Positions 3,013 to 53,620 of a stretch of DNA of 64,000 nt are shown here, piece after piece. Numbering within the stretch: position 1 is the first letter of the stretch; each line of letters starts with the position of its first letter. The translations under genes and the position numbers were made by a program. This DNA comes from Herbaspirillum aquaticum (GTDB taxonomy: Bacteria > Pseudomonadota > Gammaproteobacteria > Burkholderiales > Burkholderiaceae_D). Below the pieces are notes generated by a model. That model searched no databases. It saw only the letters and a list, made by a program, of their open reading frames with translations, and was not told the DNA's origin. The DNA is taken from positions 1 to 64,000 of the forward strand of contig NZ_NJGV01000011.1 in the NCBI RefSeq assembly GCF_002213425.1. The letters are read 5' to 3'.

Positions 3013-4428
3013 CTAGCACAACTTGAAATGCACCCCTCCCGGTGTTTCAATCTGTTTTAAACGCCGTTCTTTGAGCAAACAGGCGATCCCATTACGGAGC
3101 CGCAAATTGCTCATCGACAGCTCAAGCCCCATGCTCTTCATCTGCGAAATTGGGAAGGGGCGATTCCGTCCTCGCCTGAAAAGCAATTCAGCGATACGAT
3201 CGGCATCTTCCAGATGAAGATAGGATTTATCAGTACGCTCGAACAGCAAGCGGAAGTTATCGATATGCCAGATCACACGTTCTAATGCATTTTCGATCTC
3301 TTCAGCGGTAATGTCGCCGTCGACACCTTCAAAAGCGTGATCAACCGCCGCCATCCGGATCACGCGCTCGTAAGCACGAACTGGATAATTTAGCTCATCG
3401 AAGAACGGAGCATATTCGGCCACAACCGACCTGATGCAACGCTCAGCGGACTCGGCAACATGAGTAGCCCGACGCGACACCTTTAAGATTGGCCTCATGT
3501 CGTAACCCTTTTCTCCCTGCTTGACCCCTTCCTCGAAGAAATGGCGCATTGTCGAAAAGTAAGCTTCAGATGCTCGTCCCGGCTCAGCCGTTTCAAATTT
3601 CTTTGCACGAGCCACGTCATCTGCATCCACATAGACGACCGCAAACCGATTAAAGAATCCGGTACCGAGGCAAAGCGCTCCCATGGCAGAGTCTAGAAAT
3701 TGATCTAATGGCTTTCTCTGGGTCGCGATCGAGATAGTCAAAATCGGTTTCACCGGCTCTGAGGAGGTGTTAGCCGTCAGACTCTTGTGCGGCTGGCCGC
3801 TGTAGCTACTATTAAAAAGAGAGACAGTCGCGTCATTTTGCTTAGCAAAGAACAGCGCGCCTTCGTCAACGCAGATCCACAGGTTCGGGTTCTCGGTGAC
3901 TCGCTTCTTCATCCCAGCGAAAGAAGCATCATTACCTCTACACGGCGCGGTTAAAGGTTCAACGGGCTCTTCGCTAAGAAGCTGCTGCCGCCGCTGCTCA
4001 ACGTCCTGAAGCCGTTCATTACGCTCCTCATCAGACATGTCATGGTGGGACTCAATCTGTTTGATCCGCCTAGTCAGACCCGATTGCCGTGCCTGCCAAG
4101 CGATAAGATTATCCTGATAACAACGCAACATCTCTCCGCGTTCTCGCTCGTGCTGCTGGACAAGTTCACCGTAGAACCGTCGTATTGCCTCACCCGCGTC
4201 CGTCTTGCCGCATCCTGGTGGTGCAACGATGAGACTATAGGTATTGAGCGGTCGAGGCATCTTGCTCTTGGGGTCTTCTACCTGAAAGCACGAGCCTGTT
4301 AGGTGGGTGGCACAATCGGACACGTGGGCTATCATCAATCGGTCTGCCACATCGGACCACGAGTTCTCTTCAAGAAAAAGGCGAGAAGTACGAGACAGAG
4401 TTTCAATAGGAGCCAATGGGGTCGTCAC
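3013..4428 (-). CDS. DUF3987-type P-loop ATPase (primase/helicase-associated protein of mobile elements)
   Basis: Encodes 471 residues. Walker A is APPGCGKT (69-76), Walker B is LWICVDEG (183-190) and a sensor-like strand TISIATQ follows at 231-237, with GTGFFNRF at 255-262, as in DUF3987 proteins. Residues 90-155 are charged and predicted helical. The last 70 residues (DRIAELLFRRG..., ISQMKSMGLELSMSNLRLRNGI) look like a winged helix. Proteins of this class occur in integrated phage-like elements next to AlpA regulators and are thought to act in element DNA replication. Its ATG overlaps the stop of the AlpA-like gene by 4 bp (ATGA), so the two are translationally coupled. Confidence 0.7.
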   Translation of the reverse strand: MTTPLAPIETLSRTSRLFLEENSWSDVADRLMIAHVSDCATHLTGSCFQVEDPKSKMPRPLNTYSLIVAPPGCGKTDAGEAIRRFYGELVQQHERERGEMLRCYQDNLIAWQARQSGLTRRIKQIESHHDMSDEERNERLQDVEQRRQQLLSEEPVEPLTAPCRGNDASFAGMKKRVTENPNLWICVDEGALFFAKQNDATVSLFNSSYSGQPHKSLTANTSSEPVKPILTISIATQRKPLDQFLDSAMGALCLGTGFFNRFAVVYVDADDVARAKKFETAEPGRASEAYFSTMRHFFEEGVKQGEKGYDMRPILKVSRRATHVAESAERCIRSVVAEYAPFFDELNYPVRAYERVIRMAAVDHAFEGVDGDITAEEIENALERVIWHIDNFRLLFERTDKSYLHLEDADRIAELLFRRGRNRPFPISQMKSMGLELSMSNLRLRNGIACLLKERRLKQIETPGGVHFKLC

Positions 4429-49975: not shown

Positions 49976-51586
49976 TCAAATCACGAAGAACCCATGCGTC
50001 CCATCCCGCCCCAGCTGTTCCACCAATCCGAATTCCCAATCGAGATAAGCCTGCATCGCGCTGGCCGGATTGTCGGTACCTTCATAGGGACGGCGATAAC
50101 GGTCGATACGCGGCGAGAGCAGATGGGCCTCGCCTTTCTCCAGCGGCAGGCCGGCCTGTGACCAGGCTGCGTTGCCGCCTTCGAGCAAGAACACCGGCTG
50201 GCTCACCAGCGCCTGCAAATCCGGTACTGCAAACTGCGCCAGCAAGGCGCTGCCGCAAGTGATCACGAAGCGCGTGGCCGAGGGGAAGCGGCGCGCTGCT
50301 GCCGCAATCTCCGAGCGCAGCACGAACCAGGCCCCCGGAACATGTCCGGCCACATAACGCGCGCTCAGGGCCACATCCAGCACCACCGTACCGTCATCGG
50401 CCTCCAGCCAGCGCTGCAGCTGCTGCGCGCTGATGCGCTGCTCAGGCCGCAGTGCCACCTCCGGCAAGTCGCGCGGGGCGTCGCCGCTGACCGTGAAATC
50501 GGCCGCCGTCACGCCGTCGACCACATGGACTTCCCACGCCATCTGCGCCAGCCATGAGGCAGTCATGTCAGCGCGCACGCCATCGTCATCGACCAGCACG
50601 ATGCGCGCACCGCGCACGGGGGCATTCATCTCGGTTTCCTGCACCAGCTGCCCGCCGGGCGCGGACAGGAAATCCGGCAGATGTCCGGATCGGTATTGCT
50701 CGGGCGTCCGTACATCGAAGCGATAGACGGTGCGGTCCGGTTGCGCCAGGTCGCCCAAGCGTGCCAGCGCAATGCGCTTGACGCCCGCCCGGTCAGCGAC
50801 GCTGCGCGCCTGCCGACGCGCCTGTTCACGCTGGCTGGCCTCGACCGTTTCCGGGAAGCGGCGCGCCTGACCGTGTTCCAGCGCCTGCCCTGCCAGGGTC
50901 CAGCCGATGGTGCCATTGCGCAATGCATGGACCGGATTGGGCAGCCCTGCATTGACCAGCGACTGCGTACCGATGATGCTGCGCGTGCGGCCTGCACAGT
51001 TGACGATCACACGCGTCTTCGGATCGGGGGCAATGGCAGGCAGGCGCAGCACCAGTTCCGCACCGGGCACGCTGATGGAACCGGGAATGTTCATGTTCTG
51101 GTATTCGTCGAAGCGGCGCGCATCGACCACCACCACATCCTCGCCGCTGTCGAGCAGGGCCTGGACCTCTTCGGCCGCCAGCGAGGGGGTATGCCGCTTC
51201 GATTCGACCAGTTCGCCAAAGGCCTTGCTGGGTACGTTCACATCCTGGAACAGTTCGCCTCCTGCTTCCCTCCAGCCCCGCACGCCGCCAGCCAGCACGC
51301 CGACGTGACTATAACCGAGCGCACGCAGGCGCAGCGCGGCGCGCACGGCCAGGCCTTCGCCGTCGTCGAGCGTGACGATGCGCACATCGCGGCGCGGCAG
51401 GCGTGCAAAGGCATTCAACTCCAGATGCGAGAACGGGAAATTGGCTGCGAACAGCGGATGGGATTGCGCATGCGGCGCTTCCTCGCGCACGTCGAGCAGG
51501 GCGATTTCCTCGCGCGCCAGCAAGGCGGCGCGCACTTCGGCATAACTCACGACGGGCAGGACGGCAGTAGCGTGTTCTTGACTCAT
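49976..51586 (-). CDS. Multi-domain rhodanese sulfurtransferase
   Basis: Encodes 536 residues with four rhodanese-like domains (~10-110, ~130-240, ~270-370, ~385-490) and a C-terminal extension. A cysteine is in the active loop of domain 2 (VNCAGRTRS) and of domain 4 (ITCGSALLA). Domains 1 (TLDDGEG) and 3 (LVDDDGV) lack it and are probably structural. Its start overlaps the stop of the thiol dioxygenase gene by 4 bp, so it works on the same sulfur route, probably moving or trapping sulfane sulfur from thiol breakdown. Confidence 0.87.
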   Translation of the reverse strand: MSQEHATAVLPVVSYAEVRAALLAREEIALLDVREEAPHAQSHPLFAANFPFSHLELNAFARLPRRDVRIVTLDDGEGLAVRAALRLRALGYSHVGVLAGGVRGWREAGGELFQDVNVPSKAFGELVESKRHTPSLAAEEVQALLDSGEDVVVVDARRFDEYQNMNIPGSISVPGAELVLRLPAIAPDPKTRVIVNCAGRTRSIIGTQSLVNAGLPNPVHALRNGTIGWTLAGQALEHGQARRFPETVEASQREQARRQARSVADRAGVKRIALARLGDLAQPDRTVYRFDVRTPEQYRSGHLPDFLSAPGGQLVQETEMNAPVRGARIVLVDDDGVRADMTASWLAQMAWEVHVVDGVTAADFTVSGDAPRDLPEVALRPEQRISAQQLQRWLEADDGTVVLDVALSARYVAGHVPGAWFVLRSEIAAAARRFPSATRFVITCGSALLAQFAVPDLQALVSQPVFLLEGGNAAWSQAGLPLEKGEAHLLSPRIDRYRRPYEGTDNPASAMQAYLDWEFGLVEQLGRDGTHGFFVI

Positions 51587-52209
51587 GGGGTGGCAGTTTC
51601 GATGGACAGGTCCCAGATGTTGGGCAAGGTGGAATTGGAATATCCCGAGATGAACGGCACCCGCCGACCATCGGGATGGTAGACCGAACGCCGCACCGCG
51701 CCGATGTTGGCGCCATAGACGTGGATGCTGACGGACACCTGGTCGGCATGCGCATTGCTGACCTGGTGCACATCGTGCAGGGAGGGCAGGTCCGGCGACA
51801 CCGCCTCCACCTGCCCCGCCTGCAGGAGCGTGCGTTCGCCTGCGGGCTGCAGTTGCTGGTGTTCCCAGGCAAAGGATTGCGCATGCTCGGCACCGCGCAG
51901 CACGCCGATCAAGCCCCAGACCGTGTGGTCATGTATGGGGGTGCGCTGTCCAGGTCCCCATACAAAGCTCACCACCGAGAAGCGCTGCGCCGAATCGGCA
52001 TGCAGCAGGAATTGCTGGTAACGCTCGGGATGCGGCTGGGCATAGGCATCGGGCAGCCAGTCATCATGGGCGACCAGTTGGCGCAGCAAGGCGGCGCCGC
52101 CGTGCAGGATCGCAGCCTGGTCGGCACGCGCATCGAGCAGGCCGGCAAACCCGGTCACGAATTCGCGCAAGCGCCAGAGCTGCTTGCCAGCTGGATGGGG
52201 TGTTGACAT
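51583..52209 (-). CDS. Thiol dioxygenase (cysteine / 3-mercaptopropionate dioxygenase type)
   Basis: Encodes 208 residues, a cupin with the iron motif PIHDHTVWG (~91-99) and a third His in VHQVSNA (~146). In the strand before the motif the residues are YQQFLL, i.e. the Gln-type seen in 3-mercaptopropionate dioxygenases rather than the Arg-type of cysteine dioxygenases; this suggests but does not prove the substrate. The product is a sulfinic acid. AAAGGGAG precedes the ATG. A 266-bp structured element begins 16 bp upstream of the ATG, between this gene and its promoter. It is coupled to the rhodanese gene. Confidence 0.82.
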   Translation of the reverse strand: MSTPHPAGKQLWRLREFVTGFAGLLDARADQAAILHGGAALLRQLVAHDDWLPDAYAQPHPERYQQFLLHADSAQRFSVVSFVWGPGQRTPIHDHTVWGLIGVLRGAEHAQSFAWEHQQLQPAGERTLLQAGQVEAVSPDLPSLHDVHQVSNAHADQVSVSIHVYGANIGAVRRSVYHPDGRRVPFISGYSNSTLPNIWDLSIETATP

Positions 52210-52224
52210 GTCTCCCTTTCTCTA

Positions 52225-52490
52225 GGGCCTGTTCACATTAAATCTGCGAGTGCGAGAGGTCGCCAAGCGTTGTCTGCCTAGGCGCGGCGACGCGCCGTGG
52301 TGGTGCCACGGCAAGGAGCTGCAACAACGGCAGGCGACGCTTGGCGGCCTCTCCCGGAGGGTTGCCCCCAGAAGGCGCGCTGGCCGCGTTGCACGTCAGG
52401 GCTGGTGGCACCACCACCAGCCCTGACGCGCGCCTTGCCACCACGCCTTCTGGGGGCAACGCATCTCGCAGATTTAATGTGAACAGGCCC
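52225..52490. mobile_element. MITE-like element with 26-bp perfect terminal repeats and stacked hairpins
   Basis: The 26-bp ends, 52,225-52,250 (GGGCCTGTTCACATT...) and 52,465-52,490, are perfect inverted repeats, each bordered outside by TA (52,223-52,224 and 52,491-52,492), as expected for a TA target duplication. Inside are four further stem-loops: 52,254-52,270 with 52,337-52,353 (one mismatch); 52,361-52,377 with 52,444-52,460 (17 bp perfect); 52,396-52,408 with 52,414-52,426 (13 bp perfect); and 52,281-52,296 (6 bp). It has no coding frame of note. TA duplication and short size fit a mariner/IS630-derived MITE, but I have not seen its parent. Confidence 0.75.
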
Positions 52491-52759
52491 TAAAACGGAT
52501 GTTGCGGCCTGCCGCGACCGGGCTGCGCCGGTTCAAAGCACGACTATAAATCATTTGCAGCGCTTTCCATGGGCCTGACAGTGTGTGTGCGCACACCACT
52601 GCCGTCAACGAACCGCTGTGCATAACAATATGCGATGACCTCATCTTCAGCCTCTCCGTCATCACCGTCAGTGCGCGACCGCACCCAACTCACGGTGCGG
52701 GACTACAGACCGGTTCGTATGGACTTTTTACTATAAGTAATCCATACAAGGAGGACAGC

Positions 52760-53620
52760 ATGAGCGAAACCAGACCCGAAGGCCTTCCGCCCCAGCACCA
52801 AACCCATCAACCGGGCAGCGAACAGGAGATGCAGCCGCGCCCGCACAGCGCACCGGCCGGCGAACCCGGGCGACGGCTGGCGGGCAAGGTCGCGCTCATC
52901 ACGGGTGGCGACAGCGGCATCGGCCGCGCCGTGGCGCTGGCCTACGCGCGCGAAGGGGCGAGACTGGCCATCGTCTATCTGGATGAGGAGGAAGACGCCC
53001 GCCAGACCCAAAAGGATATCCAGGCCATGGATGCGCCCTGCCTGCTGATCCCCGGCGACGTCGGTTCGCCCGATTTCTGCCGCAGCGCCGTGCGCGCCGT
53101 GATGGATGCCTACGGCCGCCTGGACGTGCTGGTCAACAATGCGGCCCAGCAGTACCCGGCACAGAGCATCGAACAGATCTCGGCCGAGCAGCTGGAGCAC
53201 ACCTTCCGCACCAACATCTTCTCGATGTTCTACCTGGTCAAGGAAGCCATGCCCTTCCTCACGCGTGGCGCGCGCATCATCAACACCACCTCGGTGACCG
53301 CTTATCGCGGCAGCAAGCACCTGGTGGACTACGCGGCCACCAAGGGGGCCATCGTGGCCTTCACGCGCTCACTGTCACAGCAGCTGGCCCCGGCCGGCAT
53401 CCACGTCAATGCGGTGGCACCGGGGCCGATCTGGACACCCTTGATTCCCGCCAGCTTCAGTGAGGAAGAAGTGGCCAGCTTCGGCAAGAACGTACCGCTG
53501 GGGCGGCCCGGCCAGCCAGATGAGGTGGCGCCGGCCTATGTCTTTCTCGCCACCGAAGGCGCCTCCTACATGACCGGGCAGGTACTGCATCCCAATGGCG
53601 GGGAGATCGTCAACACCTGA
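52760..53620 (+). CDS. SDR oxidoreductase of the general-stress type
   Basis: Encodes 286 residues; AAGGAGGA precedes the ATG. It has an N-terminal extension (~1-40, rich in Pro/His/Gln), then a Rossmann fold with TGGDSGIG (nucleotide binding), NNAAQQ, and the catalytic set Ser in TTSVTAYRG, Tyr-x-x-x-Lys in YAATKGA. The long N-terminus and the HQPG/GDSGIG pattern match a family of stress-induced SDRs near YhdF/YghA. Substrate unknown. It stands alone on the plus strand and lies downstream of the MITE-like element. Confidence 0.87.
   Translation: MSETRPEGLPPQHQTHQPGSEQEMQPRPHSAPAGEPGRRLAGKVALITGGDSGIGRAVALAYAREGARLAIVYLDEEEDARQTQKDIQAMDAPCLLIPGDVGSPDFCRSAVRAVMDAYGRLDVLVNNAAQQYPAQSIEQISAEQLEHTFRTNIFSMFYLVKEAMPFLTRGARIINTTSVTAYRGSKHLVDYAATKGAIVAFTRSLSQQLAPAGIHVNAVAPGPIWTPLIPASFSEEEVASFGKNVPLGRPGQPDEVAPAYVFLATEGASYMTGQVLHPNGGEIVNT

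Follow-up and report, generated by a model that had tools for sequence, protein, structure and literature searches.

A mobile MITE with nested hairpins and IS5-type ends beside a thiol dioxygenase gene of Herbaspirillum

The dioxygenase locus and the architecture of the element

The window analysed here, a stretch of 64,000 nucleotides from Herbaspirillum aquaticum, contains a cysteine/thiol dioxygenase-type gene, a rhodanese-domain gene downstream of it and a divergent short-chain dehydrogenase gene (Table 1). Between the two divergent genes lies an element of 266 bp at 52225–52490, set between two TA dinucleotides and closed by perfect 26-bp inverted ends. The arms 52223–52250 and 52465–52492 are complementary at 28 of 28 positions including the flanking TAs, which leaves 26 bp for the ends proper, and the extent and ends given in a preliminary description of this DNA are therefore exact.

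Table 1. Window coordinates of the element, its parts and the neighbouring genes
Feature	Positions	Strand	Remark
Rhodanese-domain gene, downstream	49976..51586	-	Overlaps dioxygenase gene by 4 bases
Cysteine/thiol dioxygenase-type gene with element in probable leader	51583..52209	-	Pfam CDO_I, E 1e-9
Left TA (target duplication)	52223..52224	.	Single TA at G028 empty site
Left terminal inverted repeat, 26 bp	52225..52250	+	GGGCCTGTT, then variable part
Hairpin H1	52254..52353	+	Sequence-conserved internal loop TAGGCGC / GCAACAACG
Linker mini-hairpin CCCGGAGGG	52353..52361	+	Two pairs, invariant in 80 alignment rows
Hairpin H2	52361..52460	+	Part may be related to H1 in inverted form
Right terminal inverted repeat, 26 bp	52465..52490	-	Complementary to left end
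Right TA (target duplication)	52491..52492	.	Single TA at G028 empty site
Divergent short-chain dehydrogenase gene, other side of element	52760..53620	+	Start codon is the analysts' choice

The interior is built from two hairpins, H1 (arms 52254–52278 and 52329–52353, 88% complementary) and H2 (arms 52361–52384 and 52437–52460, 92% complementary), which are connected by the CCCGGAGGG linker; H2 has in addition an inner stem with arms 52391–52408 and 52414–52431 (94% complementary). The proposed stack of hairpins is confirmed by folding. The RNA MFE of the element is −214.5 kcal/mol against −118.7 ± 5.0 for shuffled sequences (z −19.1; 0 of 200 shuffles as good), and folding as DNA also sets it apart from shuffles (z −17.1). 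As for the 13-bp hairpin described earlier, the sole 13-bp perfect pair listed (52297–52309 with 52405–52417) joins the tips of H1 and H2 and is no local hairpin. When H1 was aligned with the reverse complement of H2, the likeness rose above shuffles in the window copy (z 4.9) and in one of four other copies (z 4.4), the remaining three being without clear excess (z 1.9, 1.1 and 0.1).

A search of the element against Rfam gave no match above the gathering score. The twelve matches at E ≤ 1 all fell below it, the best being MIR1858 (40.1 bits against 137, E 1.2e-5); seven of the twelve are microRNA precursors, and another is the DUF3800-IV sRNA (26.8 bits against a gathering score of 60.7). We rejected a known RNA family on this basis, as none of these weak matches reached gathering and they read as a chance product of long stems.

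The element ends 15 bp from the dioxygenase ATG (52209, minus strand) and leaves a ribosome-site-like stretch intact, which confirms the spacing first described. Fifteen base pairs are too short for a promoter. Hence, the gene's own promoter is probably on the far side of the element, which the mRNA leader would then carry. A consensus scan of 52150–52800 returned no promoter-like site.

Copies, insertion sites and related ends

The window genome (G000) contains 13 full 266-bp copies, one further copy apparently split across two contig ends and several tiny remnants. Matches at E ≤ 0.001 occur in 28 of 34 Herbaspirillum genomes, and 58 of the 59 named records with the end pattern are from this genus, the remaining one being an Oxalobacteraceae bacterium. 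A family-wide draw matched 74 of 294 genomes and 13 of 44 genera (12 besides Herbaspirillum), some of the matches being short; full-length copies were matched or aligned end to end from six other genera, mostly 262–266 bp long (a few 269–308) and 65–80% identical. Outside the family, a sample of 24 other families of the order, with one genome each, yielded a sole match of 37 bp (E 3e-4), probably a chance one. Among the matches listed from the open-licence literature no title concerns this element family, and the parts of a prokaryotic MITE review drawn on here do not name the genus (PMC10969869).

Plasmid and phage records searched with the element, and plasmid records searched with a copy from another genus, gave no match. 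An IMG/VR contig of 12,969 bp (L313) carries a full copy at 1804–2069, with neighbouring Zot-domain, secretin and G2P-type genes of the filamentous phage type; this copy may mark a vehicle for spread between species or the host flank of a prophage. On another contig (L314), which has tailed-phage baseplate, fibre and sheath genes, a 49-bp element remnant at 3626–3674 lies just after a chemotaxis receptor gene.

Insertion can be read from the empty site. Where the window has CTA-element-TAAAAC, the closest relative (G028) reads CTGTAGAC, with a single TA. For eleven other copies the two flanks were joined and searched against G028 and a second relative, G025, 40 candidates per relative being scored. 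The site is empty and has one TA for L008 in both relatives and for L014 in G028, so that the single TA expected in the preliminary description is present at the window locus and at two others. The sites of L009 (both relatives) and L002 (G028) are empty with no clean TA-for-TA match, G028 has an unrelated stretch of ~118 bp at the site of L004, and the remaining copies gave paralogous, partial, weak or no matches only. At 129 distinct end pairs, which are search hits and not a random sample, TA stands on both sides in 94, on one side in 30 and on neither in 5. The target is YTAR, with Y before the TA in 88 and R after it in 91 of the 94 two-TA pairs. The element is thus short, present in many copies and equipped with terminal inverted repeats, a target duplication and empty sites, the generic features of a MITE, which bears out its earlier assignment to this class and the copy number on which that turned. 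At 266 bp it is too short for a transposase gene.

Nine of the 129 elements overlap predicted genes. Of the other 120, 34 lie at a stop-codon TA, about twice the share expected from the 13% that such sites make up among available non-coding or stop YTAR sites; gene calls for both counts come from a simple hexamer script, not from annotation. The first base of the element is G, so TA plus G rebuilds a TAG stop. These insertions (L002, L003, L004, L005, L012 and 29 other sampled elements) lie in the same orientation as the gene in 17 cases and opposite in 15, with two unassigned. A function at gene 3′ ends was considered and rejected given this random orientation, which we read as that of harmless landing sites; the excess seems to stem from insertions that did no harm and so survived, rather than from recruitment. 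One copy, L010 (G000:C9:71671–71936), overlaps a predicted gene and may interrupt a gene-family member, its joined flanks matching several places in G028 and G025 at 76–79%. Two further copies (L007 and L031, the element at 1501–1766) share one insertion site in two species but face opposite ways; their flanks are 89% and the elements 98% identical, and either inversion in place or a second insertion may be the cause.

The ends match those of IS5-family elements. An 826-bp two-ORF insertion sequence in G025 (L248) matches the NCBIfam IS5 model NF033580 and is flanked by TA on both sides; one of its ends, GGGCCTGTTCACATT, has 15 bases in common with the element, the other is GGGTCTGTTTACATT, and its termini read GGGTCTGTTTACATTT and GGGCCTGTTCACATTT. 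Apart from L248, an end TAGGGCCTGTTAACAATCAA, TAGGGTCTGTTAAC or TAGGGCGTGTTCACAC is present in further IS5-family elements of the genus, among them L263, which has TAGGGCCTGTTAACAATCAA at the one end that was found. The ends of the element are thus IS5-type and IS427-like, the IS427 group being named by resemblance only. G025 also holds twelve near-identical IS5-family copies of ~850 bp (L250–L261) with a TA/GGGTCTGTTAAC end, some of them closely paired. In a third genome, G003, an IS5-type transposase model is matched 55 times over the same final portion, many of the matches lying at contig bases 3–95, and a single insertion sequence may cause breaks in many places of that assembly.

No matching helper was found in the window genome, a draft of 67 contigs in which the best NF033580 match scores 52.5 bits against a cut-off of 110; its sole DDE_Tnp_1 gene matches this model weakly and has no such ends in its flanks. 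Across the genus, NF033580 exceeds its cut-off in 6 of 34 genomes. The element is present in three of these six and in 25 of the 28 others (Fisher p 0.053), in the direction opposite to that expected of a helper. Loss of the helper, a location outside the draft assemblies or membership of another transposase group may account for this. Lone ends in G000 and G025 might have pointed to an autonomous element; this was considered and discarded, the inspected ends being element remnants or isolated end-like sequences and none an insertion sequence.

Paired change in the arms

All 13 full copies of the window genome have the same end variant on both sides over the first 18 bases, though the copies differ mutually, and 102 of the 129 end pairs are identical at 20 of 20 positions. 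We aligned 80 of 108 distinct full copies (alignment A1), 29 of the 80 from other genera. Over 97 pairs, 98.3% of cells are standard pairs and 63 pairs have changed on both sides, which is far above shuffled and slid controls, bearing in mind that relatedness alone can beat shuffles and that the structure was derived from the same alignment. All three long stems have remained paired between genera by changing on both sides. The 28 copies left out are 20 from Herbaspirillum, most near-identical to kept rows and including L012, and eight others that are rearranged, vary in length or at the edges or are similar to kept rows (L014, L048, L124, L156, L173, L175, L239 and L247); L012 and L014 are thus absent from the pair counts.

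Changes were counted on a tree by parsimony, with ties broken towards Watson–Crick pairs. In the terminal stem, 118 two-sided Watson–Crick changes stand beside 12 single steps leading to G-U and 12 leading to A-C, and columns 1–24 of this stem contain 14 G-U and 13 A-C cells; outer H2 behaves alike, with 70 two-sided changes and single steps of 9 to G-U and 10 to A-C. G-U pairs in RNA and A-C does not, and their equality in the terminal stem therefore argues against RNA as the main judge. The two-sided changes of this stem comprise 65 transversions and 53 transitions, the single changes 5 and 24, respectively; earlier bacterial data are cited in PMC8604942 as favouring transversions. Template switching is reported to homogenise arms and to be able to invert the spacer between them (PMC8604942); a part in the origin and upkeep of RNA stems has also been suggested for it (PMC8794818). 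Both kinds of event are represented among the copies. The core of H1 is inverted in L014, the sole such case among 101 full-size copies tested, none of which has H2 inverted, and one inner arm of L012 is overwritten by the other. The two-sided changes of the terminal and outer H2 stems, strand-symmetric and with transversions no rarer than transitions, together with the L014 inversion and the L012 arm copy, point to homogenisation of arms in DNA.

The remaining stems behave differently from the terminal one. Single steps to G-U outnumber those to A-C in outer H1 (12 against 4, with 39 two-sided changes), inner H1 (19 against 6) and inner H2 (20 against 8), an excess that counts against arm copying as a full account and fits constraint at the level of RNA. 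Across genera, the H1 internal loops keep their sequence (TAGGCGC and GCAACAACG), with similar motifs in reverse-complemented H2, and homogenisation leaves this conservation unexplained. Moreover, the orthologous pair L229/L235, with flank identities of 92% and 81%, has several changes in H2 that are mirrored on the opposite arm, which selection would also explain; in the terminal stem of the same pair one change is matched on both arms and another is not. The inner-stem G-U excess, the loop conservation and the matched changes of L229/L235 make some constraint on the interior likely.

A stronger form of this argument, which we regard as possible but doubtful, is that the fold itself is selected: the nested hairpins would act as single-stranded DNA or RNA in the spread of the element, for example by a factor binding the conserved loops, and the two-sided changes would be truly compensatory. 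The extent of two-sided change above controls, the surplus of G-U steps in outer H1 and the two inner stems, the AGGCGC and GCAAC motifs kept in H1 and echoed in reverse-complemented H2, and a length held mostly at 262–266 bp while identity falls to 65–80% in other genera all suit such selection. Against it speak the terminal and outer H2 stems, where G-U is not preferred (12:12 and 9:10), and end pairs that lack part or nearly all of the interior. There are 27 of these among the 129 sampled, spanning 31–236 bp, and 21 of them have TA on both sides.

The short forms include two similar 97-bp copies in strain CF444, a hint from sequence that this form may be able to move. A 144-bp form without H2 recurs in L160, L077 and L088 with the same junction, in three genomes and with different end variants, and represents either a recurrent deletion or a mobile sub-form. 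Selection and copying could also be combined, a tentative proposal that we place no higher than the selected fold: the two inner hairpins would be a working part kept from genus to genus, a folded DNA or RNA read by transposase or a host factor, and template switching in DNA would account for covariation of the outer stems. If this is true, both causes of paired change are separable within one family.

Interpretation and relation to known systems

The element is a real, mobile and structurally elaborate MITE with IS5-type ends. The reading that we favour, with a probability of roughly 0.7, is that of a non-autonomous MITE with IS5-family, IS427-like ends that is moved in trans, whose arms are matched by DNA copying and whose insertion at this locus is unrecruited. 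A transposase supplied in trans would insert the element at YTAR and duplicate the TA. The window copy would have inserted in the space that separates the dioxygenase gene from the divergent dehydrogenase gene, probably once its lineage had parted from H. huttiense. Within a given copy, complementarity of the terminal arms and of the outer arms of the inner hairpins would be maintained chiefly by template switching or recombination in DNA, through which one arm serves as template for the other. Of this reading, the mobility, the TA duplication, the target, the common ends and the paired change are observed, and the helper transposase, the mechanism of homogenisation and neutrality towards the gene are deduced. 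Against this reading count the lack of a matching transposase in the window genome and of helper and element co-occurrence in the 34 genomes.

The preliminary description suggested that the element may be a MITE recruited as a regulatory leader, a role in which it would act on the mRNA of the dioxygenase–rhodanese pair. The position just before the start codon with the ribosome-site-like stretch spared would suit this role, as would a separate 144-bp form found 26 bp before the same dioxygenase gene in another genome, G021. However, these are the only 2 of 27 loci of the dioxygenase gene in the genus that have the element, the closest relative has the site empty, and the two insertions are oppositely oriented relative to the gene. 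Nor do sampled copies show an orientation bias to genes, with 14 in the same and 22 in the opposite orientation within 60 bp of gene starts, 27 and 32 within 100 bp, and 54 and 47 within 250 bp. Flanks are common to only three pairs among the 129 sampled elements, which places most at different loci. Recruitment is thus very improbable, and the insertion before the dioxygenase gene seems ordinary. Least probable of all, and barely credible, is the IS630/mariner parent also suggested for this MITE. In its favour, a TA duplication is typical of that family too and an IS5-kind helper is likewise not found in the window genome. Against it, DDE_3 (IS630-type) occurs in 0 of 34 genus genomes by a search whose control was positive in 3 of 14 named genomes, and the ends match IS5-family elements instead.

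The MITE with IS5-type ends bears on how stems are read in general. Stems with paired change are usually read as signs of a functional RNA. Here the paired change is strong, yet the mismatches of the terminal stem have a spectrum that indicates copying of arms in DNA, and more than 100 natural copies are available for measurement. Moreover, in several genera of a single bacterial family this small mobile element has retained an elaborate hairpin architecture, and its likely helper is missing from genomes that hold many near-identical copies.

Other small bacterial repeats resemble the element at their borders. Correia/NEMIS elements are TA-flanked and ERIC inserts at TA; Correia/NEMIS is a different sequence family from the Herbaspirillum element. 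By its ends the element comes near the IS427 group of the IS5 family, for which 832–865 bp, ends of 13–21 bp, mostly 2-bp duplications and two overlapping frames with a frameshift motif are reported (PMC3281130). L248 resembles these in its length of 826 bp and its two frames, is flanked by TA at either end and has the end GGGCCTGTTCACATT, whereas the 266-bp element has no transposase gene, shares only its ~15 outermost bases and consists of hairpins inside.

In the account of small repeats given in PMC2229807, Correia/NEMIS elements of Neisseria likewise are small, lie beside genes and form hairpin RNA, with regulation through RNase III proposed; they differ in their length of 105–155 bp, and a two-hairpin interior is absent from that description. 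ERIC/RU-1 and RUP are also small repeats between genes, RUP inserting at TA, but are shorter (127 and 107 bp; PMC2229807). RUP is tied to IS630-Spn1, with a TA duplication (PMC2229807), whereas the Herbaspirillum element is tied to IS5-type ends. The earlier view that the nested design is richer than in common MITEs holds against the elements described in that source, and the design is conserved across genera. The closest likeness in plan is to the CIR repeats of Caulobacter and relatives, which have two long hairpin arms and a linker and are conserved between species, but measure ~110 bp and carry GANTC (PMC2229807). CIR repeats, whose mobility is called unclear there, are set apart in that source from other repeats, in which a stem joins the two ends (PMC2229807); unlike CIR as so described, the Herbaspirillum element combines both hairpin arms with an end-to-end stem.
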